Below are positions 1-33,828 of a stretch of 64,000 nt of DNA, piece after piece. A model generated the notes under the pieces. The model searched no databases, was not told the origin of the DNA, and saw nothing but the letters and a program-made list of their open reading frames with translations. The stretch's first letter is position 1. Each line of letters opens with the position of its first letter. A program made the position numbers and the translations under genes. This DNA comes from Pristionchus mayeri (taxonomy: Eukaryota; Nematoda; Chromadorea; Rhabditida; Neodiplogasteridae), in assembly GCA_036245805.1 (NCBI GenBank), contig BTRK01000003.1:13184464-13248463 (forward strand). Reading direction: 5' to 3'.

Positions 1-3000
1 TGGAAAATTTTCGAACTTTCTGGGGCATTCTAGAAGCTTTGGAACATTTTCGAACTTTCTGGAACATTCTAGAAGCTTTGGAAAATTTTCGAACTTTCTG
101 GAACATTCTAGAAGCTTTGGAACATTTTCGAACTTTCTGGAACATTCTAGAAGCTTTAGAGCATTTTCGAACTTTCAGGAATATTCTAGAAGCTTTGGAA
201 CATTTTCGAACTTTCTGGAACATTCTAGAAGCTTTGGAGCATTTTCGAACTTTCTGGGGCATTCTAGAAGCTTTGGAACATTTTCGAACTTTCTGGAACA
301 TTCTAGAAGCTTTGGAAAATTTTCGAACTTTCTGGAACATTCTAGAAGCTTTGGAAAATTTTCGAACTTTCTGGAACATTCTAGAAGCTTTGGAACATTT
401 TCGAACTTTCTCTAACATTCTAGAAGCTTTAGAGCATTTTCGAACTTTCTGGAATATTCTAGAAGCTTTGGAACATTTTCGAACTTTCTGGAACATTCTA
501 GAAGCTTTGGAGCATTTTCGAATTTTCTGGAACATTCTAGAAGCTTTGGAAAATTTTCGAACTTTCTGGAACATTCTAGAAGCTTTAGAGCATTTTCGAA
601 CTTTCTGGAATATTCTAGAAGCTTTGGAACATTTTCGAACTTTCTGGAACATTCTAGAAGCTTTGGAGCATTTTCGAATTTTCTGGAACATTCTAGAAGC
701 TTTGGAAAATTTTCGAACTTTCTGGAACATTCTAGAAGCTTTGGAACATTTTCGAACTTTCTTGAACATTCTAGAAGCTTTGGAAAATTTTCGAACTTTC
801 TGGGGCATTCTAGAAGCTTTGGAACATTTTCGAACTTTCTGGAACATTCTAGAAGCTTTGGAAAATTTTCGAACTTTCTGGAACATTCTAGAAGCTTTGG
901 AACATTTTCGAACTTTCTGGAACATTCTAGAAGCTTTAGAGCATTTTCGAACTTTCTGGAATATTCTAGAAGCTTTGGAACATTTTCGAACTTTCTGGAA
1001 CATTCTAGAAGCTTTGGAGCATTTTCGAATTTTCTGGAACATTCTAGAAGCTTTGGAAAATTTTCGAACTTTCTGGAACATTCTAGAAGCTTTGGAACAT
1101 TTTCGAACTTTCTTGAACATTCTAGAAGCTTTGGAGCATTTTCGAACTTTCTGGGGCATTCTAGAAGCTTTGGAACATTTTCGAACTTTCTGGAACATTC
1201 TAGAAGCTTTGGAAAATTTTCGAACTTTCTGGAACATTCTAGAAGCTTTGGAAAATTTTCGAACTTTCTGGGGCATTCTAGAAGCTTTGGAACATTTTCG
1301 AACTTTCAGGAACATTTTAGAAGCTTTGGAAAATATTCGAACTTTCTGGAACATTCTAGAAGCTTTGGAACATTTTCGAACTTTCTGGAACATTCTAGAA
1401 GCTTTAGAGCATTTTCGAACTTTCTGGAATATTCTAGAAGCTTTGGAACATTTTCGAACTTTCTGGAACATTCTAGAAGCTTTGGAGCATTTTCGAATTT
1501 TCTGGAACATTCTAGAAGCTTTGGAAAATTTTCGAACTTTCTGGAACATTCTAGAAGCTTTGGAACATTTTCGAACTTTCTTGAACATTCTAGAAGCTTT
1601 GGAGCATTTTCGAACCTTCTGGGGCATTCTAGAAGCTTTGGAACATTTTCGAACTTTCTGGGGCATTCTAGAAGCTTTGGAACATTTTCGAACTTTCTGG
1701 AACATTCTAGAAGCTTTGGAAAATTTTCGAACTTTCTGGAACATTCTAGAAGCTTTGGAACATTTTCGAACTTTCTTGAACATTCTAGAAGCTTTGGAAA
1801 ATTTTCGAACTTTCTGGGGCATTCTAGAAGCTTTGGAACATTTTCGAACTTTCTGGAACATTCTAGAAGCTTTGGAAAATTTTCGAACTTTCTGGAACAT
1901 TCTAGAAGCTTTGGAACATTTTCGAACTTTCTGGAACATTCTAGAAGCTTTAGAGCATTTTCGAACTTTCTGGAATATTCTAGAAGCTTTGGAACATTTT
2001 CGAACTTTCTGGAACATTCTAGAAGCTTTGGAGCATTTTCGAATTTTCTGGAACATTCTAGAAGCTTTGGAAAATTTTCGAACTTTCTGGAACATTCTAG
2101 AAGCTTTGGAACATTTTCGAACTTTCTTGAACATTCTAGAAGCTTTGGAAAATTTTCGAACTTTCTGGGGCATTCTAGAAGCTTTGGAACATTTTCGAAC
2201 TTTCTGGAACATTCTAGAAGCTTTGGAAAATTTTCGAACTTTCTGGAACATTCTAGAAGCTTTGGAACATTTTCGAACTTTCTGGAACATTCTAGAAGCT
2301 TTAGAGCATTTTCGAACTTTCTGGAATATTCTAGAAGCTTTGGAACATTTTCGAACTTTCTGGAACATTCTAGAAGCTTTGGAGCATTTTCGAACTTTCT
2401 GGGGCATTCTAGAAGCTTTGGAACATTTTCGAACTTTCTGGAACATTCTAGAAGCTTTGGAAAATTTTCGAACTTTCTGGAACATTCTAGAAGCTTTGGA
2501 AAATTTTCGAACTTTCTGGAACATTCTAGAAGCTTTGGAACATTTTCGAACTTTCTGGAACATTCTAGAAGCTTTAGAGCATTTTCGAACTTTCTGGAAT
2601 ATTCTAGAAGCTTTGGAACATTTTCGAACTTTCTGGAACATTCTAGAAGCTTTGGAGCATTTTCGAATTTTCTGGAACATTCTAGAAGCTTTGGAAAATT
2701 TTCGAACTTTCTGGAACATTCTAGAAGCTTTGGAACATTTTCGAACTTTCTTGAACATTCTAGAAGCTTTGGAAAATTTTCGAACTTTCTGGGGCATTCT
2801 AGAAGCTTTGGAACATTTTCGAACTTTCTGGAACATTCTAGAAGCTTTGGAAAATTTTCGAACTTTCTGGAACATTCTAGAAGCTTTGGAACATTTTCGA
2901 ACTTTCTGGAACATTCTAGAAGCTTTAGAGCATTTTCGAACTTTCTGGAATATTCTAGAAGCTTTGGAACATTTTCGAACTTTCTGGAATATTCTAGAAG

Positions 3001-4073
3001 CTTTGGAACATTTTCGAACTTTCTGGAACATTCTAGAAGCTTTGGAGCATTTTCGAACTTTCTGGGGCATTCTAGAAGCTTTGGAACATTTTCGAACTTT
3101 CTGGGCATTCTAGAAGCTTTGGAACATTTTCGAACTTTCTTGAACATTCTAGAAGCTTTGGAAAATTTTCGAACTTTCTGGGGCATTCTAGAAGCTTTGG
3201 AACATTTTCGAACTTTCTGGAACATTCTAGAAGCTTTGGAACATTTTCGAACTTTCTTGAACATTCTAGAAGCTTTGGAAAATTTTCGAACTTTCTGGGG
3301 CATTCTAGAAGCTTTGGAACATTTTCGAACTTTCTGGAACATTCTAGAAGCTTTGGAACATTTTCGAACTTTCTGGAACATTCTAGAAGCTTTGGAAAAT
3401 TTTCGAACTTTCTGGAACATTCTAGAAGCTTTGGAACATTTTCGAACTTTCTTGAACATTCTAGAAGCTTTGGAAAATTTTCGAACTTTCTGGGGCATTC
3501 TAGAAGCTTTGGAACATTTTCGAACTTTCTGGAACATTCTAGAAGCTTTGGAACATTTTCGAACTTTCTGGAACATTCTAGAAGCTTTAGAGCATTTTCG
3601 AACTTTCTGGAATATTCTAGAAGCTTTGGAACATTTTCGAACTTTCTGGAACATTCTAGAAGCTTTGGAGCATTTTCGAACTTTCTGGAACATTCTAGAA
3701 GCTTTGGAACATTTTCGAACTTTCTGGAACATTCTAGAAGCTTTGGAAAATTTTCGAACTTTCTGGAACATTCTAGAAGCTTTGGAACATTTTCGAACTT
3801 TCTTGAACATTCTAGAAGCTTTGGAAAATTTTCGAACTTTCTGGGGCATTCTAGAAGCTTTGGAACATTTTCGAACTTTCTGGAACATTCTAGAAGCTTT
3901 GGAAAATTTTCGAACTTTCTGGAACATTCTAGAAGCTTTGGAACATTTTCGAACTTTCTGGAACATTCTAGAAGCTTTAGAGCATTTTCGAACTTTCTGG
4001 AATATTCTAGAAGCTTTGGAACATTTTCGAACTTTCTGGAACATTCTAGAAGCTTTGGAGCATTTTCGAACTT

Positions 4074-7000
4074 TCTTGAACATTCTAGAAGCTTTGGAAC
4101 ATTTTCGAACTTTCTGGGGCATTCTAGAAGCTTTGGAACATTTTCGAACTTTCTGGAACATTCTAGAAGCTTTGGAAAATTTTCGAACTTTCTGGAACAT
4201 TCTAGAAGCTTTGGAACATTTTCGAACTTTCTTGAACATTCTAGAAGCTTTGGAAAATTTTCGAACTTTCTGGGGCATTCTAGAAGCTTTGGAACATTTT
4301 CGAACTTTCTGGAACATTCTAGAAGCTTTGGAACATTTTCGAACTTTCTGGAACATTCTAGAAGCTTTGGAAAATTTTCGAACTTTCTGGAACATTCTAG
4401 AAGCTTTGGAACATTTTCGAACTTTCTTGAACATTCTAGAAGCTTTGGAAAATTTTCGAACTTTCTGGAACATTCTAGAAGCTTTAGAGCATTTTCGAAC
4501 TTTCTGGAATATTCTAGAAGCTTTGGAACATTTTCGAACTTTCTGGAACATTCTAGAAGCTTTGGAGCATTTTCGAACTTTCTGGGGCATTCTAGAAGCT
4601 TTGGAACATTTTCGAACTTTCTGGAACATTCTAGAAGCTTTGGAAAATTTTCGAACTTTCTGGAACATTCTAGAAGCTTTGGAAAATTTTCGAACTTTCT
4701 GGAACATTCTAGAAGCTTTGGAACATTTTCGAACTTTCTGGAACATTCTAGAAGCTTTAGAGCATTTTCGAACTTTCTGGAATATTCTAGAAGCTTTGGA
4801 ACATTTTCGAACTTTCTGGAACATTCTAGAAGCTTTGGAGCATTTTCGAATTTTCTGGAACATTCTAGAAGCTTTGGAAAATTTTCGAACTTTCTGGAAC
4901 ATTCTAGAAGCTTTGGAACATTTTCGAACTTTCTTGAACATTCTAGAAGCTTTGGAAAATTTTCGAACTTTCTGGGGCATTCTAGAAGCTTTGGAACATT
5001 TTCGAACTTTCTGGAACATTCTAGAAGCTTTGGAAAATTTTCGAACTTTCTGGAACATTCTAGAAGCTTTGGAACATTTTCGAACTTTCTGGAACATTCT
5101 AGAAGCTTTAGAGCATTTTCGAACTTTCTGGAATATTCTAGAAGCTTTGGAACATTTTCGAACTTTCTGGGGCATTCTAGAAGCTTTGGAAAATTTTCGA
5201 ACTTTCTGGGGCATTCTAGAAGCTTTGGAACATTTTCGAACTTTCTGGAACATTCTAGAAGCTTTGGAAAATTTTCGAACTTTCTGGAACATTCTAGAAG
5301 CTTTGGAACATTTTCGAACTTTCTGGAACATTCTAGAAGCTTTAGAGCATTTTCGAACTTTCTGGAATATTCTAGAAGCTTTGGAACATTTTCGAACTTT
5401 CTGGAACATTCTAGAAGCTTTGGAAAATTTTCGAACTTTCTGGAACATTCTAGAAGCTTTGGAACATTTTCGAACTTTCTGGAACATTCTAGAAGCTTTA
5501 GAGCATTTTCGAACTTTCTGGAATATTCTAGAAGCTTTGGAACATTTTCGAACTTTCTGGAACATTCTAGAAGCTTTGGAGCATTTTCGAATTTTCTGGA
5601 ACATTCTAGAAGCTTTGGAAAATTTTCGAACTTTCTGGAACATTCTAGAAGCTTTGGAACATTTTCGAACTTTCTTGAACATTCTAGAAGCTTTGGAACA
5701 TTTTCGAACTTTCTGGGGCATTCTAGAAGCTTTGGAACATTTTCGAACTTTCTGGAACATTCTAGAAGCTTTGGAAAATTTTCGAACTTTCTGGAACATT
5801 CTAGAAGCTTTGGAACATTTTCGAACTTTCTTGAACATTCTAGAAGCTTTGGAAAATTTTCGAACTTTCTGGGGCATTCTAGAAGCTTTGGAACATTTTC
5901 GAACTTTCTGGAACATTCTAGAAGCTTTGGAACATTTTCGAACTTTCTGGAACATTCTAGAAGCTTTGGAAAATTTTCGAACTTTCTGGAACATTCTAGA
6001 AGCTTTGGAACATTTTCGAACTTTCTTGAACATTCTAGAAGCTTTGGAAAATTTTCGAACTTTCTGGAACATTCTAGAAGCTTTAGAGCATTTTCGAACT
6101 TTCTGGAATATTCTAGAAGCTTTGGAACATTTTCGAACTTTCTGGAACATTCTAGAAGCTTTGGAGCATTTTCGAACTTTCTGGGGCATTCTAGAAGCTT
6201 TGGAACATTTTCGAACTTTCTGGAACATTCTAGAAGCTTTGGAAAATTTTCGAACTTTCTGGAACATTCTAGAAGCTTTGGAAAATTTTCGAACTTTCTG
6301 GAACATTCTAGAAGCTTTGGAACATTTTCGAACTTTCTGGAACATTCTAGAAGCTTTAGAGCATTTTCGAACTTTCTGGAATATTCTAGAAGCTTTGGAA
6401 CATTTTCGAACTTTCTGGAACATTCTAGAAGCTTTGGAGCATTTTCGAATTTTCTGGAACATTCTAGAAGCTTTGGAAAATTTTCGAACTTTCTGGAACA
6501 TTCTAGAAGCTTTGGAGCATTTTCGAATTTTCTGGAACATTCTAGAAGCTTTGGAAAATTTTCGAACTTTCTGGAACATTCTAGAAGCTTTGGAACATTT
6601 TCGAACTTTCTTGAACATTCTAGAAGCTTTGGAAAATTTTCGAACTTTCTGGGGCATTCTAGAAGCTTTGGAACATTTTCGAACTTTCTGGAACATTCTA
6701 GAAGCTTTGGAAAATTTTCGAACTTTCTGGAACATTCTAGAAGCTTTGGAACATTTTCGAACTTTCTGGAACATTCTAGAAGCTTTAGAGCATTTTCGAA
6801 CTTTCTGGAATATTCTAGAAGCTTTGGAACATTTTCGAACTTTCTGGGGCATTCTAGAAGCTTTGGAAAATTTTCGAACTTTCTGGGGCATTCTAGAAGC
6901 TTTGGAACATTTTCGAACTTTCTGGAACATTCTAGAAGCTTTGGAAAATTTTCGAACTTTCTGGAACATTCTAGAAGCTTTGGAACATTTTCGAACTTTC

Positions 7001-10000
7001 TGGAACATTCTAGAAGCTTTAGAGCATTTTCGAACTTTCTGGAATATTCTAGAAGCTTTGGAACATTTTCGAACTTTCTGGAACATTCTAGAAGCTTTGG
7101 AAAATTTTCGAACTTTCTGGAACATTCTAGAAGCTTTGGAACATTTTCGAACTTTCTGGAACATTCTAGAAGCTTTAGAGCATTTTCGAACTTTCTGGAA
7201 TATTCTAGAAGCTTTGGAACATTTTCGAACTTTCTGGAACATTCTAGAAGCTTTGGAGCATTTTCGAATTTTCTGGAACATTCTAGAAGCTTTGGAAAAT
7301 TTTCGAACTTTCTGGAACATTCTAGAAGCTTTGGAACATTTTCGAACTTTCTTGAACATTCTAGAAGCTTTGGAACATTTTCGAACTTTCTGGGGCATTC
7401 TAGAAGCTTTGGAACATTTTCGAACTTTCTGGAACATTCTAGAAGCTTTGGAAAATTTTCGAACTTTCTGGAACATTCTAGAAGCTTTGGAACATTTTCG
7501 AACTTTCTTGAACATTCTAGAAGCTTTGGAAAATTTTCGAACTTTCTGGGGCATTCTAGAAGCTTTGGAACATTTTCGAACTTTCTGGAACATTCTAGAA
7601 GCTTTGGAACATTTTCGAACTTTCTGGAACATTCTAGAAGCTTTGGAAAATTTTCGAACTTTCTGGAACATTCTAGAAGCTTTGGAACATTTTCGAACTT
7701 TCTTGAACATTCTAGAAGCTTTGGAAAATTTTCGAACTTTCTGGAACATTCTAGAAGCTTTAGAGCATTTTCGAACTTTCTGGAATATTCTAGAAGCTTT
7801 GGAACATTTTCGAACTTTCTGGAACATTCTAGAAGCTTTGGAGCATTTTCGAACTTTCTGGGGCATTCTAGAAGCTTTGGAACATTTTCGAACTTTCTGG
7901 AACATTCTAGAAGCTTTGGAAAATTTTCGAACTTTCTGGAACATTCTAGAAGCTTTGGAAAATTTTCGAACTTTCTGGAACATTCTAGAAGCTTTGGAAC
8001 ATTTTCGAACTTTCTGGAACATTCTAGAAGCTTTAGAGCATTTTCGAACTTTCTGGAATATTCTAGAAGCTTTGGAACATTTTCGAACTTTCTGGAACAT
8101 TCTAGAAGCTTTGGAGCATTTTCGAATTTTCTGGAACATTCTAGAAGCTTTGGAAAATTTTCGAACTTTCTGGAACATTCTAGAAGCTTTGGAACATTTT
8201 CGAACTTTCTTGAACATTCTAGAAGCTTTGGAAAATTTTCGAACTTTCTGGGGCATTCTAGAAGCTTTGGAACATTTTCGAACTTTCTGGAACATTCTAG
8301 AAGCTTTGGAAAATTTTCGAACTTTCTGGAACATTCTAGAAGCTTTGGAACATTTTCGAACTTTCTGGAACATTCTAGAAGCTTTAGAGCATTTTCGAAC
8401 TTTCTGGAACATTCTAGAAGCTTTGGAACATTTTCGAACTTTCTGGAACATTCTAGAAGCTTTGGAGCATTTTCGAATTTTCTGGAACATTCTAGAAGCT
8501 TTGGAACATTTTCGAACTTTCTTGAACATTCTAGAAGCTTTGGAAAATTTTCGAACTTTCTGGAACATTCTAGAAGCTTTGGAACATTTTCGAACTTTCT
8601 GGAACATTCTAGAAGCTTTAGAGCATTTTCGAACTTTCTGGAATATTCTAGAAGCTTTGGAACATTTTCGAACTTTCTGGAACATTCTAGAAGCTTTGGA
8701 GCATTTTCGAATTTTCTGGAACATTCTAGAAGCTTTGGAAAATTTTCGAACTTTCTGGAACATTCTAGAAGCTTTGGAACATTTTCGAACTTTCTTGAAC
8801 ATTCTAGAAGCTTTGGAACATTTTCGAACTTTCTGGGGCATTCTAGAAGCTTTGGAACATTTTCGAACTTTCTGGAACATTCTAGAAGCTTTGGAAAATT
8901 TTCGAACTTTCTGGAACATTCTAGAAGCTTTGGAACATTTTCGAACTTTCTTGAACATTCTAGAAGCTTTGGAAAATTTTCGAACTTTCTGGGGCATTCT
9001 AGAAGCTTTGGAACATTTTCGAACTTTCTGGAACATTCTAGAAGCTTTGGAACATTTTCGAACTTTCTGGAACATTCTAGAAGCTTTGGAAAATTTTCGA
9101 ACTTTCTGGAACATTCTAGAAGCTTTGGAACATTTTCGAACTTTCTTGAACATTCTAGAAGCTTTGGAAAATTTTCGAACTTTCTGGAACATTCTAGAAG
9201 CTTTAGAGCATTTTCGAACTTTCTGGAATATTCTAGAAGCTTTGGAACATTTTCGAACTTTCTGGAACATTCTAGAAGCTTTGGAGCATTTTCGAACTTT
9301 CTGGGGCATTCTAGAAGCTTTGGAACATTTTCGAACTTTCTGGAACATTCTAGAAGCTTTGGAAAATTTTCGAACTTTCTGGAACATTCTAGAAGCTTTG
9401 GAAAATTTTCGAACTTTCTGGAACATTCTAGAAGCTTTGGAACATTTTCGAACTTTCTGGAACATTCTAGAAGCTTTAGAGCATTTTCGAACTTTCTGGA
9501 ATATTCTAGAAGCTTTGGAACATTTTCGAACTTTCTGGAACATTCTAGAAGCTTTGGAGCATTTTCGAATTTTCTGGAACATTCTAGAAGCTTTGGAAAA
9601 TTTTCGAACTTTCTGGAACATTCTAGAAGCTTTGGAACATTTTCGAACTTTCTTGAACATTCTAGAAGCTTTGGAAAATTTTCGAACTTTCTGGGGCATT
9701 CTAGAAGCTTTGGAACATTTTCGAACTTTCTGGAACATTCTAGAAGCTTTGGAAAATTTTCGAACTTTCTGGAACATTCTAGAAGCTTTGGAACATTTTC
9801 GAACTTTCTGGAACATTCTAGAAGCTTTAGAGCATTTTCGAACTTTCTGGAATATTCTAGAAGCTTTGGAACATTTTCGAACTTTCTGGGGCATTCTAGA
9901 AGCTTTGGAAAATTTTCGAACTTTCTGGGGCATTCTAGAAGCTTTGGAACATTTTCGAACTTTCTGGAACATTCTAGAAGCTTTGGAAAATTTTCGAACT

Positions 10001-11900
10001 TTCTGGAACATTCTAGAAGCTTTGGAACATTTTCGAACTTTCTGGAACATTCTAGAAGCTTTAGAGCATTTTCGAACTTTCTGGAATATTCTAGAAGCTT
10101 TGGAACATTTTCGAACTTTCTGGAACATTCTAGAAGCTTTGGAAAATTTTCGAACTTTCTGGAACATTCTAGAAGCTTTGGAACATTTTCGAACTTTCTG
10201 GAACATTCTAGAAGCTTTAGAGCATTTTCGAACTTTCTGGAATATTCTAGAAGCTTTGGAACATTTTCGAACTTTCTGGAACATTCTAGAAGCTTTGGAG
10301 CATTTTCGAATTTTCTGGAACATTCTAGAAGCTTTGGAAAATTTTCGAACTTTCTGGAACATTCTAGAAGCTTTGGAACATTTTCGAACTTTCTTGAACA
10401 TTCTAGAAGCTTTGGAACATTTTCGAACTTTCTGGGGCATTCTAGAAGCTTTGGAACATTTTCGAACTTTCTGGAACATTCTAGAAGCTTTGGAAAATTT
10501 TCGAACTTTCTGGAACATTCTAGAAGCTTTGGAACATTTTCGAACTTTCTTGAACATTCTAGAAGCTTTGGAAAATTTTCGAACTTTCTGGGGCATTCTA
10601 GAAGCTTTGGAACATTTTCGAACTTTCTGGAACATTCTAGAAGCTTTGGAACATTTTCGAACTTTCTGGAACATTCTAGAAGCTTTGGAAAATTTTCGAA
10701 CTTTCTGGAACATTCTAGAAGCTTTGGAACATTTTCGAACTTTCTTGAACATTCTAGAAGCTTTGGAAAATTTTCGAACTTTCTGGAACATTCTAGAAGC
10801 TTTAGAGCATTTTCGAACTTTCTGGAATATTCTAGAAGCTTTGGAACATTTTCGAACTTTCTGGAACATTCTAGAAGCTTTGGAGCATTTTCGAACTTTC
10901 TGGGGCATTCTAGAAGCTTTGGAACATTTTCGAACTTTCTGGAACATTCTAGAAGCTTTGGAAAATTTTCGAACTTTCTGGAACATTCTAGAAGCTTTGG
11001 AAAATTTTCGAACTTTCTGGAACATTCTAGAAGCTTTGGAACATTTTCGAACTTTCTGGAACATTCTAGAAGCTTTAGAGCATTTTCGAACTTTCTGGAA
11101 TATTCTAGAAGCTTTGGAACATTTTCGAACTTTCTGGAACATTCTAGAAGCTTTGGAGCATTTTCGAATTTTCTGGAACATTCTAGAAGCTTTGGAAAAT
11201 TTTCGAACTTTCTGGAACATTCTAGAAGCTTTGGAACATTTTCGAACTTTCTTGAACATTCTAGAAGCTTTGGAAAATTTTCGAACTTTCTGGGGCATTC
11301 TAGAAGCTTTGGAACATTTTCGAACTTTCTGGAACATTCTAGAAGCTTTGGAAAATTTTCGAACTTTCTGGAACATTCTAGAAGCTTTGGAACATTTTCG
11401 AACTTTCTGGAACATTCTAGAAGCTTTAGAGCATTTTCGAACTTTCTGGAATATTCTAGAAGCTTTGGAACATTTTCGAACTTTCTGGGGCATTCTAGAA
11501 GCTTTGGAAAATTTTCGAACTTTCTGGGGCATTCTAGAAGCTTTGGAACATTTTCGAACTTTCTGGAACATTCTAGAAGCTTTGGAGCATTTTCGAACTT
11601 TCTGGGGCATTCTAGAAGCTTTGGAACATTTTCGAACTTTCTGGGGCATTCTAGAAGCTTTGGAACATTTTCGAACTTTCTGGGGCATTCTAGAAGCTTT
11701 GGAAAATTTTCGAACTTTCTGGAACATTCTAGAAGCTTTGGAAAATTTTCGAACTTTCTGGAACATTCTAGAAGCTTTGGAACATTTTCGAACTTTCTGG
11801 AACATTCTAGAAGCTTTAGAGCATTTTCGAACTTTCTGGAACATTCTAGAAGCGTTGGAACATTTTCGAACTTTCTGGAACATTCTAGAAGCGTTGGAAC
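4074..11900. repeat. Higher-order repeat domain, ~1.4-1.7 kb super-units
   Basis: A diagnostic pair of variant units (CTTGAAC followed by GGGGC) recurs near 4.07, 5.67, 7.35, 8.79 and 10.39 kb, and again near 15.54 kb. A second marker, two GGGGC units separated by an AAATTTT unit, recurs near 5,169, 6,846, 9,888, 11,487 and 16,635. Spacings are exact multiples of 39 (1,677, 3,042, 1,599 and 5,148 bp). The domain thus evolved by duplication of blocks of about 37-43 units. Boundaries are approximate because they were traced by eye. Confidence 0.7.
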
Positions 11901-19110: not shown

Positions 19111-22100
19111 GGAACATTTTCGAACTTTCTGGGGCATTCTAGAAGCTTTGGAACATATTCGAACTTTCTGGAACATTCTAGAAGCTTTGGAGCATTTTCG
19201 AATTTTCTGGAACATTCTAGAAGCTTTGGAACATTTTCGAACTTTCTGGAACATTCTAGAAGCGTTGGAACATTTTCGAACTTTCTGGAACATTCTAGAA
19301 GCGTTGGAACATTTTCGAACTTTCTGGAACATTCTAGAAGCTTTGGAACATTTTCGAACTTTCTGGAACATTCTAGAAGCTTTGGAGCATTTTCGAATTT
19401 TCTGGAACATTCTAGAAGCTTTGGAACATTTTCGAACTTTCTGGAACATTCAAGAAGCTTTAGAGCATTTTCGAACTTTCTGGAACATTCTAGAAGCTTT
19501 AGAGCATTTTCGAACTTTCTGGAACATTCTAGAAGCTTTGGAAAATTTTCGAACTTTCTGGAACATTCTAGAAGCTTTGGAACATTTTCGAACTTTCTGG
19601 AACATTCTAGAAGCTTTAGAGCATTTTCGAACTTTCTGGAATATTCTAGAAGCTTTGGAACATTTTCGAACTTTCTGGAATATTCTAGAAGCTTTGGAAC
19701 ATTTTCGAACTTTCTGGAACATTCTAGAAGCTTTGGAGCATTTTCGAACTTTCTGGGGCATTCTAGAAGCTTTGGAACATTTTCGAACTTTCTGGGGCAT
19801 TCTAGAAGCTTTGGAACATTTTCGAACTTTCTTGAACATTCTAGAAGCTTTGGAAAATTTTCGAACTTTCTGGGGCATTCTAGAAGCTTTGGAACATTTT
19901 CGAACTTTCTGGAACATTCTAGAAGCTTTGGAACATTTTCGAACTTTCTGGAACATTCTAGAAGCTTTGGAAAATTTTCGAACTTTCTGGAACATTCTAG
20001 AAGCTTTGGAAAATTTTCGAACTTTCTGGAACATTCTAGAAGCTTTGGAACATTTTCGAACTTTCTGGAACATTCTAGAAGCTTTAGAGCATTTTCGAAC
20101 TTTCTGGAACATTCTAGAAGCGTTGGAACATTTTCGAACTTTCTGGAACATTCTAGAAGCGTTGGAACATTTTCGAACTTTCTTGAACATTCTAGAAGCT
20201 TTGGAACATTTTCGAACTTTCTGGGGCATTCTAGAAGCTTTGGAACAATTTCGAACTTTCTGGAACATTCTAGAAGCTTTGGAACATTTTCGAACTTTCT
20301 GGAACATTCTAGAAGCTTTGGAGCATTTTCGAACTTTCTGGAACATTCTAGAAGCTTTGGAACATTTTCGAACTTTCTGGAACATTCTAGAAGCGTTGGA
20401 ACATTTTCGAACTTTCTGGAACATTCTAGAAGCGTTGGAACATTTTCGAACTTTCTGGAACATTCTAGAAGCTTTAGAGCATTTTCGAACTTTCTGGAAT
20501 ATTCTAGAAGCTTTGGAACATTTTCGAACTTTCTGGAACATTCTAGAAGCGTTGGAACATTTTCGAACTTTCTGGAACATTCTAGAAGCGTTGGAACATT
20601 TTCGAACTTTCTGGAACATTCTAGAAGCGTTGGAACATTTTCGAACTTTCTGGAACATTCTAGAAGCTTTGGAACATTTTCGAACTTTCTGGAACATTCT
20701 AGAAGCTTTGGAGCATTTTCGAATTTTCTGGAACATTCTAGAAGCTTTGGAACATTTTCGAACTTTCTTGAACATTCTAGAAGCTTTGGAAAATTTTCGA
20801 ACTTTCTGGAACATTCTAGAAGATTTGGAGCATTTTCGAACTTTCTGGGGCATTCTAGAAGCTTTGGAACATTTTCGAACTTTCTGGGGCATTCTAGAAG
20901 CTTTGGAACATATTCGAACTTTCTGGAACATTCTAGAAGCTTTGGAACATTTTCGAACTTTCTGGAACATTCTAGAAGCTTTGGAGCATTTTCGAATTTT
21001 CTGGAACATTCTAGAAGCTTTGGAACATTTTCGAACTTTCTTGAACATTCTAGAAGCTTTGGAAAATTTTCGAACTTTCTGGAACATTCTAGAAGCTTTG
21101 GAGCATTTTCGAACTTTCTGGGGCATTCTAGAAGCTTTGGAACATTTTCGAACTTTCTGGGGCATTCTAGAAGCTTTGGAACATATTCGAACTTTCTGGA
21201 ACATTCTAGAAGCTTTGGAGCATTTTCGAATTTTCTGGAACATTCTAGAAGCTTTGGAACATTTTCGAACTTTCTGGAACATTCTAGAAGCTTTGGAACA
21301 TTTTCGAACTTTCTGGAACATTCTAGAAGCTTTGGAGCATTTTCGAATTTTCTGGAACATTCTAGAAGCTTTGGAACATTTTCGAACTTTCTTGAACATT
21401 CTAGAAGCTTTGGAAAATTTTCGAACTTTCTGGAACATTCTAGAAGCTTTGGAGCATTTTCGAACTTTCTGGGGCATTCTAGAAGCTTTGGAACATTTTC
21501 GAACTTTCTGGGGCATTCTAGAAGCTTTGGAACATATTCGAACTTTCTGGAACATTCTAGAAGCTTTGGAGCATTTTCGAATTTTCTGGAACATTCTAGA
21601 AGCTTTGGAACATTTTCGAACTTTCTGGAACATTCTAGAAGCGTTGGAACATTTTCGAACTTTCTGGAACATTCTAGAAGCGTTGGAACATTTTCGAACT
21701 TTCTGGAACATTCTAGAAGCTTTGGAACATTTTCGAACTTTCTGGAACATTCTAGAAGCTTTGGAGCATTTTCGAATTTTCTGGAACATTCTAGAAGCTT
21801 TGGAACATTTTCGAACTTTCTGGAACATTCAAGAAGCTTTAGAGCATTTTCGAACTTTCTGGAACATTCTAGAAGCTTTAGAGCATTTTCGAACTTTCTG
21901 GAATATTCTAGAAGCTTTGGAACATTTTCGAACTTTCTGGAACATTCTAGAAGCTTTGGAACATTTTCGAACTTTCTGGAACATTCTAGAAGCGTTGGAA
22001 CATTTTCGAACTTTCTGGAACATTCTAGAAGCGTTGGAACATTTTCGAACTTTTTGGAACATTCTAGAAGCTTTAGAGCATTTTCGAATTTTCTGGAACA

Positions 22101-24539
22101 TTCTAGAAGCTTTGGAAAATTTTCGAACTTTCTGGAACATTCTAGAAGCTTTGGAGCATTTTCGAATTTTCTGGAACATTCTAGAAGCTTTGGAACATTT
22201 TCGAACTTTCTGGAACATTCTAGAAGCGTTGGAACATTTTCGAACTTTCTGGAACATTCTAGAAGCGTTGGAACATTTTCGAACTTTTTGGAACATTCTA
22301 GAAGCTTTAGAGCATTTTCGAATTTTCTGGAACATTCTAGAAGCTTTGGAACATTTTCGAACTTTCTGGAACATTCAAGAAGCTTTAGAGCATTTTCGAA
22401 CTTTCTGGAACATTCTAGAAGCTTTAGAGCATTTTCGAACTTTCTGGAATATTCTAGAAGCTTTGGAACATTTTCGAACTTTCTGGAACATTCTAGAAGC
22501 TTTGGAACATTTTCGAACTTTCTTGAACATTCTAGAAGCTTTGGAAAATTTTCGAACTTTCTGGAACATTCTAGAAGCTTTGGAACATTTTCGAACTTTC
22601 TGGAACATTCTAGAAGCTTTGGAGCATTTTCGAATTTTCTGGAACATTCTAGAAGCTTTGGAACATTTTCGAACTTTCTGGAACATTCTAGAAGCGTTGG
22701 AACATTTTCGAACTTTCTGGAACATTCTAGAAGCGTTGGAACATTTTCGAACTTTCTGGAACATTCTAGAAGCTTTAGAGCATTTTCGAACTTTCTGGAA
22801 TATTCTAGAAGCTTTGGAACATTTTCGAACTTTCTGGAACATTCTAGAAGCTTTGGAGCATTTTCAAATTTTCTGGAACATTCTAGAAGCTTTGGAACAT
22901 TTTCGAACTTTCTGGAACATTCTAGAAGCTTTGGAACATTTTCGAACTTTCTGGAACATTCTAGAAGCTTTGGAGCATTTTCGAATTTTCTGGAACATTC
23001 TAGAAGCTTTGGAACATTTTCGAACTTTCTGGAACATTCTAGAAGCGTTGGAACATTTTCGAACTTTCTGGAACATTCTAGAAGCTTTGGAAAATTTTCG
23101 AACTTTCTGGGGCATTCTAGAAGCGTTGGAACATTTTCGAACTTTCTGGAACATTCTAGAAGCGTTGGAACATTTTCGAACTTTCTGGAACATTCTAGAA
23201 GCTTTAGAGCATTTTCGAACTTTCTGGAATATTCTAGAAGCTTTGGAACATTTTCGAACTTTCTGGAACATTCTAGAAGCTTTGGAGCATTTTCAAATTT
23301 TCTGGAACATTCTAGAAGCTTTGGAACATTTTCGAACTTTCTGGAACATTCTAGAAGCGTTGGAACATTTTCGAACTTTCTGGAACATTCTAGAAGCGTT
23401 GGAACATTTTCGAACTTTCTGGAACATTCTAGAAGCTTTAGAGCATTTTCGAACTTTCTGGAATATTCTAGAAGCTTTGGAACATTTTCGAACTTTCTGG
23501 AACATTCTAGAAGCTTTGGAGCATTTTCAAATTTTCTGGAACATTCTAGAAGCTTTGGAACATTTTCGAACTTTCTGGAACATTCTAGAAGCTTTGGAAC
23601 ATTTTCGAACTTTCTGGAACATTCTAGAAGCTTTGGAGCATTTTCGAATTTTCTGGAACATTCTAGAAGCTTTGGAACATTTTCGAACTTTCTGGAACAT
23701 TCTAGAAGCGTTGGAACATTTTCGAACTTTCTGGAACATTCTAGAAGCGTTGGAACATTCTAGAAGCGTTGGAACATTTTCGAACTTTCTGGAACATTCT
23801 AGAAGCTTTGGAACATTTTCGAACTTTCTGGAACATTCTAGAAGCTTTGGAGCATTTTCGAATTTTCTGGAACATTCTAGAAGCTTTGGAACATTTTCGA
23901 ACTTTCTGGAACATTCTAGAAGCGTTGGAACATTTTCGAACTTTCTGGAACATTCTAGAAGCGTTGGAACATTTTCGAACTTTCTGGAACATTCTAGAAG
24001 CGTTGGAACATTTTCGAACTTTCTGGAACATTCTAGAAGCTTTGGAGCATTTTCGAATTTTCTGGAACATTCTAGAAGCTTTGGAAAATTTTCGAACTTT
24101 CTGGAACATTCTAGAAGCTTTGGAACATTTTCGAACTTTCTGGAACATTCTAGAAGCTTTGGAGCATTTTCGAATTTTCTGGAACATTCTAGAAGCTTTG
24201 GAACATTTTCGAACTTTCTGGAACATTCTAGAAGCGTTGGAACATTTTCGAACTTTCTGGAACATTCTAGAAGCGTTGGAACATTTTCGAACTTTCTGGA
24301 ACATTCTAGAAGCTTTGGAACATTTTCGAACTTTCTGGAACATTCTAGAAGCTTTGGAACATTTTCGAACTTTCTGGAACATTCTAGAAGCTTTGGAACA
24401 TTTTCGAACTTTCTGGAACATTCTAGAAGCTTTGGAACATTTTCGAACTTTCTGGAACATTCTAGAAGCGTTGGAACATTTTCGAACTTTCTGGAACATT
24501 CTAGAAGCGTTGGAACATTTTCGAACTTTCTGGAACATT

Positions 24540-27500
24540 CTAGAAGCGTTGGAACATTTTCGAACTTTCTGGAACATTCTAGAAGCTTTGGAACATTTTC
24601 GAACTTTCTGGAACATTCTAGAAGCTTTGGAGCATTTTCGAATTTTCTGGAACATTCTAGAAGCTTTGGAGCATTTTCGAATTTTCTGGAACATTCTAGA
24701 AGCTTTGGAACATTTTCAAACTTTCTGGAACATTCAAGAAGCTTTAGAGCATTTTCGAACTTTCTGGAATATTCTAGAAGCTTTGGAACATTTTCGAACT
24801 TTCTGGAACATTCTAGAAGCTTTGGAACATTTTCGAACTTTCTGGAACATTCTAGAAGCTTTGGAACATTTTCGAACTTTCTGGAACATTCTAGAAGCTT
24901 TGGAACATTTTCGAACTTTCTGGAACATTCTAGAAGCGTTGGAACATTTTCGAACTTTCTGGAACATTCTAGAAGCGTTGGAACATTTTCGAACTTTCTG
25001 GAACATTCTAGAAACTTTAGAGCATTTTCGAATTTTCTGGAACATTCTAGAAGCTTTGGAACATTTTCGAACTTTCTGGAACATTCAAGAAGCTTTAGAG
25101 CATTTTCGAACTTTCTGGAACATTCTAGAAGCTTTAGAGCATTTTCGAACTTTCTGGAATATTCTAGAAGCTTTGGAACATTTTCGAACTTTCTGGAACA
25201 TTCTAGAAGCTTTGGAACATTTTCGAACTTTCTGGAACATTCTAGAAGCTTTGGAACATTTTCGAACTTTCTGGAACATTCTAGAAGCTTTGGAGCATTT
25301 TCGAATTTTCTGGAACATTCTAGAAGCTTTGGAACATTTTCGAACTTTCTGGAACATTCTAGAAGCGTTGGAACATTTTCGAACTTTCTGGAACATTCTA
25401 GAAGCGTTGGAACATTTTCGAACTTTCTGGAACATTCTAGAAGCTTTAGAGCATTTTCGAACTTTCTGGAATATTCTAGAAGCTTTGGAACATTTTCGAA
25501 CTTTCTGGAACATTCTAGAAGCTTTGGAGCATTTTCAAATTTTCTGGAACATTCTAGAAGCTTTGGAACATTTTCGAACTTTCTGGAACATTCTAGAAGC
25601 TTTGGAACATTTTCGAACTTTCTGGAACATTCTAGAAGCTTTGGAGCATTTTCGAATTTTCTGGAACATTCTAGAAGCTTTGGAACATTTTCGAACTTTC
25701 TGGAACATTCTAGAAGCGTTGGAACATTTTCGAACTTTCTGGAACATTCTAGAAGCGTTGGAACATTTTCGAACTTTCTGGAACATTCTAGAAGCGTTGG
25801 AACATTTTCGAACTTTCTGGAACATTCTAGAAGCTTTGGAACATTTTCGAACTTTCTAGAACATTCTAGAAGCTTTGGAGCATTTTCGAATTTTCTGGAA
25901 CATTCTAGAAGCTTTGGAACATTTTCGAACTTTCTGGAACATTCTAGAAGCGTTGGAACATTTTCGAACTTTCTGGAACATTCTAGAAGCTTTGGAGCAT
26001 TTTCGAATTTTCTGGAACATTCTAGAAGCTTTGGAAAATTTTCGAACTTTCTGGAACATTCTAGAAGCTTTGGAACATTTTCGAACTTTCTGGAACATTC
26101 TAGAAGCTTTGGAGCATTTTCGAATTTTCTGGAACATTCTAGAAGCTTTGGAACATTTTCGAACTTTCTGGAACATTCTAGAAGCGTTGGAACATTTTCG
26201 AACTTTCTGGAACATTCTAGAAGCTTTGGAACATTTTCGAACTTTCTGGAACATTCTAGAAGCTTTGGAACATTTTCGAACTTTCTGGAACATTCTAGAA
26301 GCTTTGGAGCATTTTCGAACTTTCTGGAACATTCTAGAAGCGTTGGAACATTTTCGAACTTTCTGGAACATTCTAGAAGCGTTGGAACATTTTCGAACTT
26401 TCTGGAACATTCTAGAAGCTTTGGAACATTTTCGAACTTTCTGGAACATTCTAGAAGCTTTGGAACATTTTCGAACTTTCTGGAACATTCTAGAAGCTTT
26501 GGAACATTTTCGAACTTTCTGGGGCATTCTAGAAGCTTTGGAACATTTTCGAACTTTCTGGAACATTCTAGAAGCTTTGGAACATTTTCGAACTTTCTGG
26601 AACATTCTAGAAGCTTTGGAAAATTTTCGAACTTTCTGGAACATTCTAGAAGCTTTGGAACATTTTCGAACTTTCTGGAACATTCTAGAAGCTTTGGAGC
26701 ATTTTCGAATTTTCTGGAACATTCTAGAAGCTTTGGAACATTTTCGAACTTTCTGGAACATTCTAGAAGCGTTGGAACATTTTCGAACTTTCTGGAACAT
26801 TCTAGAAGCGTTGGAACATTTTCGAACTTTCTGGAACATTCTAGAAGCTTTGGAACATTTTCGAACTTTCTGGAACATTCTAGAAGCTTTGGAGCATTTT
26901 CGAATTTTCTGGAAAATTCTAGAAGCTTTGGAACATTTTCGAACTTTCTGGAACATTCAAGAAGCTTTAGAGCATTTTCGAACTTTCTGGAACATTCTAG
27001 AAGCTTTAGAGCATTTTCGAACTTTCTGGAATATTCTAGAAGCTTTGGAACATTTTCGAACTTTCTGGAACATTCTAGAAGCTTTGGAACATTTTCGAAC
27101 TTTCTTGAACATTCTAGAAGCTTTGGAAAATTTTCGAACTTTCTGGAACATTCTAGAAGCTTTGGAACATTTTCGAACTTTCTGGAACATTCTAGAAGCT
27201 TTGGAGCATTTTCGAATTTTCTGGAACATTCTAGAAGCTTTGGAACATTTTCGAACTTTCTGGAACATTCTAGAAGCGTTGGAACATTTTCGAACTTTCT
27301 GGAACATTCTAGAAGCGTTGGAACATTTTCGAACTTTCTGGAACATTCTAGAAGCTTTAGAGCATTTTCGAACTTTCTGGAATATTCTAGAAGCTTTGGA
27401 ACATTTTCGAACTTTCTGGAACATTCTAGAAGCTTTGGAGCATTTTCAAATTTTCTGGAACATTCTAGAAGCTTTGGAACATTTTCGAACTTTCTGGAAC

Positions 27501-30500
27501 ATTCTAGAAGCTTTGGAACATTTTCGAACTTTCTGGAACATTCTAGAAGCTTTGGAGCATTTTCGAATTTTCTGGAACATTCTAGAAGCTTTGGAACATT
27601 TTCGAACTTTCTGGAACATTCTAGAAGCGTTGGAACATTTTCGAACTTTCTGGAACATTCTAGAAGCGTTGGAACATTTTCGAACTTTCTGGAACATTCT
27701 AGAAGCGTTGGAACATTTTCGAACTTTCTGGAACATTCTAGAAGCTTTGGAACATTTTCGAACTTTCTGGAACATTCTAGAAGCGTTGGAACATTTTCGA
27801 ACTTTCTGGAACATTCTAGAAGCTTTGGAACATTTTCGAACTTTCTGGAACATTCTAGAAGCTTTGGAGCATTTTCGAATTTTCTGGAACATTCTAGAAG
27901 CTTTGGAGCATTTTCGAATTTTCTGGAACATTCTAGAAGCTTTGGAACATTTTCAAACTTTCTGGAACATTCAAGAAGCTTTAGAGCATTTTCGAACTTT
28001 CTGGAATATTCTAGAAGCTTTGGAACATTTTCGAACTTTCTGGAACATTCTAGAAGCTTTGGAACATTTTCGAACTTTCTGGAACATTCTAGAAGCTTTG
28101 GAACATTTTCGAACTTTCTGGAACATTCTAGAAGCTTTGGAACATTTTCGAACTTTCTGGAACATTCTAGAAGCGTTGGAACATTTTCGAACTTTCTGGA
28201 ACATTCTAGAAGCGTTGGAACATTTTCGAACTTTCTGGAACATTCTAGAAACTTTAGAGCATTTTCGAATTTTCTGGAACATTCTAGAAGCTTTGGAACA
28301 TTTTCGAACTTTCTGGAACATTCAAGAAGCTTTAGAGCATTTTCGAACTTTCTGGAACATTCTAGAAGCTTTAGAGCATTTTCGAACTTTCTGGAATATT
28401 CTAGAAGCTTTGGAACATTTTCGAACTTTCTGGAACATTCTAGAAGCTTTGGAACATTTTCGAACTTTCTGGAACATTCTAGAAGCTTTGGAACATTTTC
28501 GAACTTTCTGGAACATTCTAGAAGCTTTGGAGCATTTTCGAATTTTCTGGAACATTCTAGAAGCTTTGGAACATTTTCGAACTTTCTGGAACATTCTAGA
28601 AGCGTTGGAACATTTTCGAACTTTCTGGAACATTCTAGAAGCGTTGGAACATTTTCGAACTTTCTGGAACATTCTAGAAGCTTTAGAGCATTTTCGAACT
28701 TTCTGGAATATTCTAGAAGCTTTGGAACATTTTCGAACTTTCTGGAACATTCTAGAAGCTTTGGAGCATTTTCAAATTTTCTGGAACATTCTAGAAGCTT
28801 TGGAACATTTTCGAACTTTCTGGAACATTCTAGAAGCTTTGGAACATTTTCGAACTTTCTGGAACATTCTAGAAGCTTTGGAGCATTTTCGAATTTTCTG
28901 GAACATTCTAGAAGCTTTGGAACATTTTCGAACTTTCTGGAACATTCTAGAAGCGTTGGAACATTTTCGAACTTTCTGGAACATTCTAGAAGCGTTGGAA
29001 CATTTTCGAACTTTCTGGAACATTCTAGAAGCGTTGGAACATTTTCGAACTTTCTGGAACATTCTAGAAGCTTTGGAACATTTTCGAACTTTCTAGAACA
29101 TTCTAGAAGCTTTGGAGCATTTTCGAATTTTCTGGAACATTCTAGAAGCTTTGGAACATTTTCGAACTTTCTGGAACATTCTAGAAGCGTTGGAACATTT
29201 TCGAACTTTCTGGAACATTCTAGAAGCTTTGGAGCATTTTCGAATTTTCTGGAACATTCTAGAAGCTTTGGAAAATTTTCGAACTTTCTGGAACATTCTA
29301 GAAGCTTTGGAACATTTTCGAACTTTCTGGAACATTCTAGAAGCTTTGGAGCATTTTCGAATTTTCTGGAACATTCTAGAAGCTTTGGAACATTTTCGAA
29401 CTTTCTGGAACATTCTAGAAGCGTTGGAACATTTTCGAACTTTCTGGAACATTCTAGAAGCTTTGGAACATTTTCGAACTTTCTGGAACATTCTAGAAGC
29501 TTTGGAACATTTTCGAACTTTCTGGAACATTCTAGAAGCTTTGGAGCATTTTCGAACTTTCTGGAACATTCTAGAAGCGTTGGAACATTTTCGAACTTTC
29601 TGGAACATTCTAGAAGCGTTGGAACATTTTCGAACTTTCTGGAACATTCTAGAAGCTTTGGAACATTTTCGAACTTTCTGGAACATTCTAGAAGCTTTGG
29701 AACATTTTCGAACTTTCTGGAACATTCTAGAAGCTTTGGAACATTTTCGAACTTTCTGGGGCATTCTAGAAGCTTTGGAACATTTTCGAACTTTCTGGAA
29801 CATTCTAGAAGCTTTGGAACATTTTCGAACTTTCTGGAACATTCTAGAAGCTTTGGAAAATTTTCGAACTTTCTGGAACATTCTAGAAGCTTTGGAACAT
29901 TTTCGAACTTTCTGGAACATTCTAGAAGCTTTGGAGCATTTTCGAATTTTCTGGAACATTCTAGAAGCTTTGGAACATTTTCGAACTTTCTGGAACATTC
30001 TAGAAGCGTTGGAACATTTTCGAACTTTCTGGAACATTCTAGAAGCGTTGGAAAATTTTGAACTTTCTGGAACATTCTAGAAGCTTTGGAACATTTTCGA
30101 ACTTTCTGGAACATTCTAGAAGCTTTGGAGCATTTTCGAATTTTCTGGAAAATTCTAGAAGCTTTGGAACATTTTCGAACTTTCTGGAACATTCAAGAAG
30201 CTTTAGAGCATTTTCGAACTTTCTGGAACATTCTAGAAGCTTTAGAGCATTTTCGAACTTTCTGGAATATTCTAGAAGCTTTGGAACATTTTCGAACTTT
30301 CTGGAACATTCTAGAAGCTTTGGAACATTTTCGAACTTTCTTGAACATTCTAGAAGCTTTGGAAAATTTTCGAACTTTCTGGAACATTCTAGAAGCTTTG
30401 GAACATTTTCGAACTTTCTGGAACATTCTAGAAGCTTTGGAGCATTTTCGAATTTTCTGGAACATTCTAGAAGCTTTGGAACATTTTCGAACTTTCTGGA

Positions 30501-30956
30501 ACATTCTAGAAGCGTTGGAACATTTTCGAACTTTCTGGAACATTCTAGAAGCGTTGGAACATTTTCGAACTTTCTGGAACATTCTAGAAGCTTTAGAGCA
30601 TTTTCGAACTTTCTGGAATATTCTAGAAGCTTTGGAACATTTTCGAACTTTCTGGAACATTCTAGAAGCTTTGGAGCATTTTCAAATTTTCTGGAACATT
30701 CTAGAAGCTTTGGAACATTTTCGAACTTTCTGGAACATTCTAGAAGCTTTGGAACATTTTCGAACTTTCTGGAACATTCTAGAAGCTTTGGAGCATTTTC
30801 GAATTTTCTGGAACATTCTAGAAGCTTTGGAACATTTTCGAACTTTCTGGAACATTCTAGAAGCGTTGGAACATTTTCGAACTTTCTGGAACATTCTAGA
30901 AGCGTTGGAACATTTTCGAACTTTCTGGAACATTCTAGAAGCGTTGGAACATTTTC
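24540..30956. repeat. Two adjacent copies of a ~3.2-kb higher-order unit (offset 3,237 bp)
   Basis: Rare variants recur at an offset of 3,237 bp (83 units): CATTTTCAAAC at about 24,713 and 27,950, GAAACTTTAG at about 25,011 and 28,248, and CTTTCTAGAAC at about 25,852 and 29,089. The second copy has one extra 1-base loss near 30,059, which shifts later matches to 3,236. Part of the unit recurs a third time at an offset of 1,910 bp up to about 31,500. This is a recent tandem amplification of a whole block of units. Confidence 0.75.
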
Positions 30957-31522
30957 GAACTTTCTGGAACATTCTAGAAGCTTTGGAACATTTTCGAACT
31001 TTCTAGAACATTCTAGAAGCTTTGGAGCATTTTCGAATTTTCTGGAACATTCTAGAAGCTTTGGAACATTTTCGAACTTTCTGGAACATTCTAGAAGCGT
31101 TGGAACATTTTCGAACTTTCTGGAACATTCTAGAAGCTTTGGAGCATTTTCGAATTTTCTGGAACATTCTAGAAGCTTTGGAAAATTTTCGAACTTTCTG
31201 GAACATTCTAGAAGCTTTGGAACATTTTCGAACTTTCTGGAACATTCTAGAAGCTTTGGAGCATTTTCGAATTTTCTGGAACATTCTAGAAGCTTTGGAA
31301 CATTTTCGAACTTTCTGGAACATTCTAGAAGCGTTGGAACATTTTCGAACTTTCTGGAACATTCTAGAAGCTTTGGAACATTTTCGAACTTTCTGGAACA
31401 TTCTAGAAGCTTTGGAACATTTTCGAACTTTCTGGAACATTCTAGAAGCTTTGGAGCATTTTCGAACTTTCTGGAACATTCTAGAAGCGTTGGAACATTT
31501 TCGAACTTTCTGGAACATTCTA

Positions 31523-32297
31523 CAGTCCTGTTGTGTCCCACCGTGAACATGCGTCACCCGGAGTAACCCGGGGTGACTCGGGGTGACCCCGGGTGACCCA
31601 TGGTGACCCATGACCGACTCCTGACTCGGAGAGTGAATTTTATGAATCGAGAGTATGATATTCGGGTTCAGCACTTCCTGGCCGTTCGAACCATATATAT
31701 TTCATAATTTATTTATAAGAATAAAAACACTCGATTTTAATTGCAAACGAGGCTATCAAAGGTCTGACCCACAGAAGCCGCATATTGGACCAGCAGGTAA
31801 TTAAGCTTCTTCCCGGTTTTACATTCAAATGTTCACAGGTTTTCAGCCAAGTGATACATTTTACGATTTCCCTTGCTTCGTTTTGTTTATATTATTTTTA
31901 TTTTCTTTATAATGTTTTAGTGGACTAGTTTAAACCAAGCAAATAATGGGAAACCATGAAATGTATCAGTTGTCTGAAAACCGGGGAAAGTTTGAATGCA
32001 AAACCGGGAAAAAGATTAATTACCTGCTGGTCCAATATGCGGCTTCTGTGGGTCAGACCTTTGATAGCCTCGTTTGCAATTAAAATCGAGTGTTTTTATT
32101 CTTATAAATAAATTATGAAATATATATGGTTCGAACGGTCAGGAAGTGCTGAACCCGAATATCATACTCTCGATTCATAAAATTCACTCTCCGAGTCAGG
32201 AGTCGGTCATGGGTCACCATGGGTCACCCGGGGTCACCCCGAGTCACCGCGGGTTACTCCGGGTGACGCATGTTCACGGTGGGACACAACAGGACTG
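31523..32297. mobile_element. Foldback MITE with TA target-site duplication, inserted in the satellite
   Basis: The element is 775 bp. Its ends are perfect inverted copies starting CAGTCCTGTTGTGTCCCACC, and arms of about 340 bp extend inward to a loop at about 31,870-31,955. It is flanked by TA at 31,521-31,522 and 32,298-32,299. Removing the element and one TA restores an ordinary satellite unit (ATTC-TA-GAAGCG). TA duplication and ends starting CAG fit a Tc1/mariner-dependent non-autonomous element. The outer arms carry several tandem GGGTGACC-like motifs. No transposase is visible. Open frames here are mirror images of each other from the palindrome, not genes. Confidence 0.93.
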
Positions 32298-33298
32298 TAG
32301 AAGCGTTGGAACATTTTCGAACTTTCTGGAACATTCTAGAAGCTTTGGAACATTTTCGAACTTTCTGGAACATTCTAGAAGCTTTGGAACATTTTCGAAC
32401 TTTCTGGAACATTCTAGAAGCTTTGGAACATTTTCGAACTTTCTGGGGCATTCTAGAAGCTTTGGAACATTTTCGAACTTTCTGGAACATTCTAGAAGCT
32501 TTGGAACATTTTCGAACTTTCTGGAACATTCTAGAAGCTTTGGAAAATTTTCGAACTTTCTGGAACATTCTAGAAGCTTTGGAACATTTTCGAACTTTCT
32601 GGAACATTCTAGAAGCTTTGGAGCATTTTCGAATTTTCTGGAACATTCTAGAAGCTTTGGAACATTTTCGAACTTTCTGGAACATTCTAGAAGCGTTGGA
32701 ACATTTTCGAACTTTCTGGAACATTCTAGAAGCGTTGGAACATTTTCGAACTTTCTGGAACATTCTAGAAGCTTTGGAACATTTTCGAACTTTCTGGAAC
32801 ATTCTAGAAGCTTTGGAGCATTTTCGAATTTTCTGGAACATTCTAGAAGCTTTGGAACATTTTCGAACTTTCTGGAACATTCAAGAAGCTTTAGAGCATT
32901 TTCGAACTTTCTGGAATATTCTAGAAGCTTTGGAACATTTTCGAACTTTCTGGAACATTCTAGAAGCTTTGGAGCATTTTCGAATTTTCTGGAACATTCT
33001 AGAAGCTTTGGAACATTTCGAACTTTCTGGAACATTCTAGAAGCGTTGGAACATTTTCGAACTTTCTGGAACATTCTAGAAGCGTTGGAACATTTTCGAA
33101 CTTTCTGGAACATTTTAGAAGCTTTGGAACATTTTCGAACTTTCTGGAACATTCTAGAAGCTTTGGAGCATTTTCGAACTTTCTGGAATATTCTAGAAGC
33201 TTTGGAACATTCTAGAAGCTTTGGAGCATTTTCGAATTTTCTGGAAAAATCTAGAAGCGTTGGAACATTTTCGAACTTTTTGGAACATTCTAGAAGCT
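32298..33298. repeat. 39-bp satellite array, right block
   Basis: This is the same unit in the same orientation as the left block, resuming exactly where the foldback element interrupts it. About 25 units are present. The distal edge decays: a 1-base loss near 33,017, CATTTTAGAAG near 33,112, loss of one half-unit near 33,200, and AAAAATCTAG near 33,245. The repeat ends at about 33,298. Decay at the edge and homogeneity inside are typical of satellites kept uniform by unequal exchange. Confidence 0.96.
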
Positions 33299-33299
33299 T

Positions 33300-33717: not shown

Positions 33718-33719
33718 GG

Positions 33720-33828
33720 ATCGATGCCTTTGTAACTTCATCTGTCCCTCCCCTCCCTATTTCGCAATCCAGACAGACGGACAGACGGACAGACAGACAG
33801 ACACTGCGCTTTATATATAGGTATTGAT
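33720..33828. repeat. CAGA-type microsatellite plus dispersed tail
   Basis: A GACAGACGGACAGA run at about 33,770-33,802 is followed by CTGCGCTTTATATATAGGTA. The same 20-base tail, preceded by a short CAGACACACA run, occurs at about 59,669. Two unrelated sites with one tail suggest the end of a retroposed or dispersed element. The family cannot be named from this alone. Confidence 0.6.

Follow-up and report, generated by a model that had tools for sequence, protein, structure and literature searches.

Why does the nematode Pristionchus mayeri carry a tandem array of heat shock elements (HSEs) tens of kilobases long, and what kind of element is it? The window analyzed here, a 64,000 bp stretch of contig C3 (C3:13184464-13248463; genome of 290.8 Mb in 73 contigs), opens inside this array, which an earlier sequence-only reading of the window had proposed as an independent satellite system. 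That independence was not supported. With a probability of roughly 75%, we read the giant array as the internal promoter minisatellite of a P. mayeri Helitron, apparently overgrown to about 56 kb in one gene-less copy. The sequence-only reading had also pointed to HSE-bearing Helitrons of Caenorhabditis; the Helitron link is right, in a host of the genus Pristionchus.

Extent and unit of the array

Tandem Repeats Finder (TRF) reports a period-39 tandem array at window positions 1-33211 (93% matches), and the end of the array lies at 33298. Its left part (1-31522) and right part (32298-33298), both assigned to the minus strand, which is that of the Helitron, are separated by a 775 bp palindromic miniature inverted-repeat transposable element (MITE; 31523-32297, strandless), foreign to the Helitron. 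The window part parses into 833 units with 39 distinct sequences and contains 823 exact copies of TTCTAGAA up to 33298, one further copy occurring in the rest of the window. The satellite had been placed at 1-33298; a tandem array does occupy that interval, but its start lies 22.9 kb further left, at about C3:13161520, and the MITE interrupts it. The whole array thus measures about 56.2 kb and comprises 1,419 parsed units (56 distinct sequences); exact TTCTAGAA occurs 1,406 times in it. Long homogeneous arrays assemble poorly, and the exact length may be wrong; that the length is altogether an assembly artifact is nevertheless hardly credible, given the irregular but ordered blocks of unit types, the unique internal MITE, and the unlike flanks on the two sides.

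The unit reads CGAAC, TTTCT, GGAAC, ATTCT and AGAAG, followed by CTTT, GGAAC and ATTTT. An HSE consists of at least three alternating nGAAn pentamers, and the consensus unit has five that are exact, as the sequence-only reading had recognized. When the mononucleotides of the unit were shuffled 200,000 times, five was never reached; the shuffle maximum was four, seen twice. Of the 829 parsed units of the window part, 722 retain all five pentamers, and the 39-bp units are, by their sequence, HSE arrays.

The Helitron setting

Between the array and the right-hand end of the element lie repeats of about 115 bp of the TATACGGTA type (33299-33717, minus strand; TRF 33303-33717), followed by a Helitron 5' terminal stretch (33718-33827, minus strand), delimited by alignment of copies. 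A canonical Helitron encodes Rep and a PIF1-type helicase, begins with TC after an A, and ends with CTRR behind a hairpin, with T next. Here the minus strand gives the terminus as A|TCAATACCTATATATAAAGCGCAGT (33803-33827), the flanking A being the complement of 33828; it thus shows the canonical TC end with A before it. This 5' end has 59 exact copies genome-wide, of which 56, the window copy included, are preceded by A.

The 3' end was recognized by comparing longer copies, 8 of 9 of which have a long hairpin followed by CTGG, with T directly after CTGG in 7 of the 8 readable copies (L055 is unreadable, and L046 lies outside the set). An end running from ACTGCGC to GGTATTGAT was our first reading of the 3' end and was dropped once the strand of the Rep-helicase gene became known.

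The array and its flanks travel together in dispersed places. Among 30 fetched copies of the 5' end (the window copy included), 19 have TTCTAGAA within 1.5 kb on the element side; the remaining 11 comprise seven filled nearly throughout by 115-bp repeats and four with neither feature. Repeats of about 115 bp also occur in L045-L052, L054 and L055. Five further loci had been picked out solely because they contain the unit, and of these L001, L006 and L008 carry the repeats. A 24-mer of the unit occurs 7,311 times genome-wide, and the 100 places listed include many dispersed arrays, on both strands and mostly short; the same 24-mer had no match among viral contigs. An origin of the array as a stand-alone satellite was rejected on the strength of these dispersed arrays with the same flanks, even though one free-standing array (L053, below) exists. 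The proposal in the sequence-only reading that the array is a reservoir spreading HSEs fits the dispersed Helitron copies.

Helitron_like_N (PF14214) has 81 matches in the genome. The domain lies within 8 kb inside the element and on the expected strand for 18 of the 56 ends, as against 3 on the wrong strand; after shifting the ends as a control the pairing fell to 1, 0, 0 and 0. For the L045 gene, matches of its pieces were to Helitron_like_N as well as to a Rep family and to PIF1, the combination expected of a canonical Helitron gene. Among the best 120 of 1,407 relatives of a joined Rep-helicase query, the best named ones are from Trichuris muris (62% identity), Ancylostoma caninum (59%), C. 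japonica (58%) and C. nigoni (54%), each over about half of the query, with one other entry higher at 64%. A second Helitron_like_N class (e.g. C1:5379837, C2:39100240, C6:40700715, C6:20802817) stands apart by its open frames, which reach 4,031 residues and greatly exceed in length those of the HSE family.

The six Rep-helicase copies that were read (L045-L049, L051) share one order: 5' end, 115-bp repeats, an array with six TTCTAGAA, a single HSE outside the array, and the candidate start codon. This single HSE is a perfect four-pentamer site in 6/6 copies and, in five (L049 is the exception), has a TATAAAR about 45 bp before it. In L045, for example, the array occupies 552-800, TATAAAG lies at 1029, the single HSE at 1074 and the candidate ATG at 1548. 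The window copy has no Rep-helicase gene between the array and the 5' end. The left side of the giant copy is CT-rich, as it is in gene-less copies.

Conservation of the pentamer cores and growth of the array

The sequence-only reading had noted that TTCTAGAA is nearly invariant in the window and that other positions vary. Both statements are true, yet they carry little weight: with 39 distinct sequences in 833 units, many unit positions outside TTCTAGAA equal it in invariance, and about 90 window units contain GGGGC, which abolishes a GAA core. Unit types recur as multi-unit blocks of irregular length, as expected if founder types were copied blockwise. Because few founder types were copied in blocks, the invariance of TTCTAGAA within the array is weak evidence, and we rejected it as proof of selection; conservation tracks founder types. 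A regular higher-order repeat was also considered and set aside, the autocorrelation of unit types being weak (best 0.236 versus 0.162 expected); at lag 60 it is 0.31 in the left half. We interpret the array as having grown by repeated multi-unit block duplication, for which unequal exchange or slippage may be responsible.

Comparing variants inside and outside the core, the test set by the sequence-only reading, is therefore uninformative within the array, and the dispersed copies, where it speaks for that reading, are the better place for it. In 22 dispersed elements with 110 units, agreement with the consensus was 0.963 for the GAA/TTC cores versus 0.885 for the spacers of the same five pentamers (position permutation, p 0.007); for the 54 distinct dispersed units the values were 0.936 and 0.856 (p 0.011). 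This comparison left out the giant array (L026) and L053, counted duplicate fetches once, and received nothing from copies without units. The true register gave the highest core value of the five registers tried. At least four consecutive pentamers are kept by 86 of the 110 dispersed units, versus 49% expected if the consensus mutated uniformly. Because the elements are related (L027 and L028 even have a flank in common), both p values err on the optimistic side.

Several observations weigh against reading the array as a Helitron promoter. Among the 54 distinct units, a core mask shifted by one base scores close to the true one (0.923). The candidate start codon was chosen from the open frame, and the TATA-like box is a reading of the sequence. 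L004 is without 115-bp repeats on its right. L053 (C1:13567000-13576900) holds a 58-unit array at 3902-6065 that appears free-standing, its 9.9 kb containing no 115-bp repeats, end or hairpin. At the left side of the giant copy itself its own 3' end was not found; instead that side abuts a degenerate 3' hairpin in the opposite orientation (C3:13160789, outside the window), and the giant copy is therefore incomplete or composite. Here the arrangement looks like two elements joined 3' to 3'.

On these grounds one may ask whether the resemblance to HSEs is functionless, a neutral minisatellite whose ancestor held one HSE by chance and then expanded and was homogenized. The free-standing array of L053 and the dependence of conservation within the giant array on founder types, not on cores, speak for this; it is nonetheless unlikely, since in dispersed copies the cores are better kept than the spacers, and every one of the six Rep-helicase copies has its separate perfect HSE, five with the TATA-like box beside it. 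Neutrality of the giant array itself is compatible with the Helitron promoter reading too.

Genome-wide load of HSEs

Perfect four-pentamer HSEs (GAANNTTCNNGAANNTTC) number 14,152 genome-wide, versus 23 for the reversed pattern. The giant array holds 1,216 of them, or 8.6% (726 in the window part and 490 in the left part). In 57.7 kb of examined flank there were no perfect four-pentamer HSEs and two exact three-pentamer ones.

These counts bear on the idea that selection has made the giant array an organ of the heat response in its own right, which would either soak up HSF-1 as a sink or produce heat-induced satellite RNA and stress bodies like human satellite III. A single 56-kb block with this many perfect sites, and five intact pentamers in most of its window units, could be expected of such an organ. 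We consider it improbable: 91% of the perfect four-pentamer sites lie elsewhere, so any sink would sit mostly outside the giant array, and block duplication of few founder types explains its homogeneity.

Proposed mechanism and relation to known systems

Under the Helitron promoter reading, heat would activate HSF-1, whose trimers would bind the HSEs of the Helitron, both in the array and at the single site; bound HSF-1 would switch the transposase on, and the Helitron would move under heat stress, its copies seeding HSEs across the genome. At the giant locus, block duplications through unequal exchange or slippage would then have inflated the array, which we infer to be mainly a by-product. 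The analogy to C. elegans makes it likely that HSF-1 acts on the Helitron promoter in response to heat; P. mayeri would then follow the same pattern in HSF-1 binding, heat induction and mobilization.

Most HSEs of C. elegans lie within Helitrons and are bound by HSF-1, and heat induction of Helitron1_CE was found by experiment to depend on HSF-1 (PMC6927752, PMC6765114). Enrichment of HSEs in Helitrons was seen in 27 of 27 Caenorhabditis genomes examined; the authors raise the possibility that no other genus has this association, and propose mobilization under stress as the original role of HSEs in the transposase promoter (PMC6927752). Pristionchus is not mentioned in the main text of that paper.

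The Hac-HSE Helitrons described there (Helitron1_CE and HelitronY4_CE; Garrigues 2019, PMC6927752; Schreiner 2019, PMC6765114) share with the P. mayeri elements clustered tandem HSEs spread by dispersed copies, and in both the HSEs lie upstream of the Rep-helicase gene (6/6 copies in P. mayeri). They differ in host, P. mayeri being a diplogastrid (a member of the Diplogasteroidea), and in size, with 1,419 units in the P. mayeri array as against eight HelitronY4_CE copies with >100 HSEs (PMC6927752, PMC6765114). Satellites inside Helitrons of Caenorhabditis are also known, Cele_Fam_7_40 and its relatives, built from multiples of AGAANNTTCT (Subirana 2015, PMC4595182; 2023, PMC9918286); the unit and genus are other than the 39 bp unit of P. 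mayeri, and heat shock goes unmentioned in the portions of these two reports at hand. Human satellite III with its nuclear stress bodies is likewise a large tandem array proposed as an HSF target, but a pericentromeric satellite, in contrast to a transposon promoter in P. mayeri. Helentrons of the Pacific oyster reportedly carry and spread satellite-like tandem arrays (PMC7492417), as the P. mayeri Helitrons do, with no link to HSEs named.

Searches of the open-licence literature turned up no account of Pristionchus Helitrons that bear HSEs, and as far as these searches show, a diplogastrid HSE Helitron and its 56-kb array are new. The case is real and well supported: its kind is known, its lineage is new, and its array is exceptional. 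Heat-wired Helitrons outside Caenorhabditis would run counter to the published suggestion of restriction to that genus, so that an ancient link can now be tested against a convergent or a horizontally transferred one. A single genome with HSE arrays ranging from few units to 1,419 also suits a test of whether transposon-borne sites compete with heat shock genes for HSF-1, and the giant array would be an instance of a satellite arising from a transposon promoter. A bolder and improbable extension would make HSE-armed Helitrons an old partnership of rhabditine nematodes rather than something peculiar to Caenorhabditis; in it, the HSE load of P. mayeri (>14,000 perfect sites, one 56-kb block, and a copy that precedes the HSF gene by about 2.8 kb) would serve as a buffer for HSF-1 or act on it by feedback, with the giant block as a gathering site resembling a stress body.

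Host HSF and small heat shock protein genes

A single exon for an HSF DNA-binding domain came out of the genome search, and the raw exon sequence confirmed it. The closest solved structures to its query, which was joined from pieces and closed with three supplied residues, were HSF1 DNA-binding domains. An HSE Helitron copy precedes the candidate start codon of this sole HSF gene found by about 2.8 kb (L056, C5:22632000-22641900; Helitron HSEs in the HSF sense at 850-1017, candidate HSF start codon at 3777). Among the four-pentamer sites listed, about nine clusters fall in the first 8.3 Mb of C1; at that density so close a Helitron is unlikely by chance, in what was an after-the-fact look.

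Small heat shock protein domains had 36 matches, from which six stretches (8.7 kb) were taken. HSEs were present in four: an exact three-pentamer HSE in L057, L058 and L062, and a five-pentamer HSE with one mismatch in L060, the core being TTCTAGAA in L058 and L060. No HSE was seen in stretches L059 and L061. One small heat shock protein, joined from its exons, matches a P. mayeri protein at 99%, and Caenorhabditis was rejected as the host. L057 (C5:28816450-28818450) contains a divergent hsp16-like pair in near-identical mirror-image halves, with an exact HSE just before TATAAAAGG.

Other features of the window and related loci

Because the unit equals 13 codons, the array holds a long open frame: in one plus-strand frame there are three stops in 31.5 kb (window 1-31500), leaving an open stretch of 9,881 codons, which gene-prediction programs may mistake for a giant protein. 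The ten open frames of the right flank gave no Pfam match above the cut-off. The MITE inserted within the TTC-TA-GAA of one TTCTAGAA, with a TA duplication at 31521-31522 and 32298-32299; its inverted-repeat arms (31518-31894 and 31926-32302) are 94% complementary, with the terminal inverted repeat CAGTCCTGTTGTGTCCC. Nested inverted repeats that we read as another palindromic element adjoin the Helitron end at 33924-35065; their arms measure 245, 135 and 195 nt and are 95-98% complementary. In L001, a second inverted-repeat element flanked by TA is inserted at about 1905-2810, within the terminal stretch of that HSE Helitron copy.

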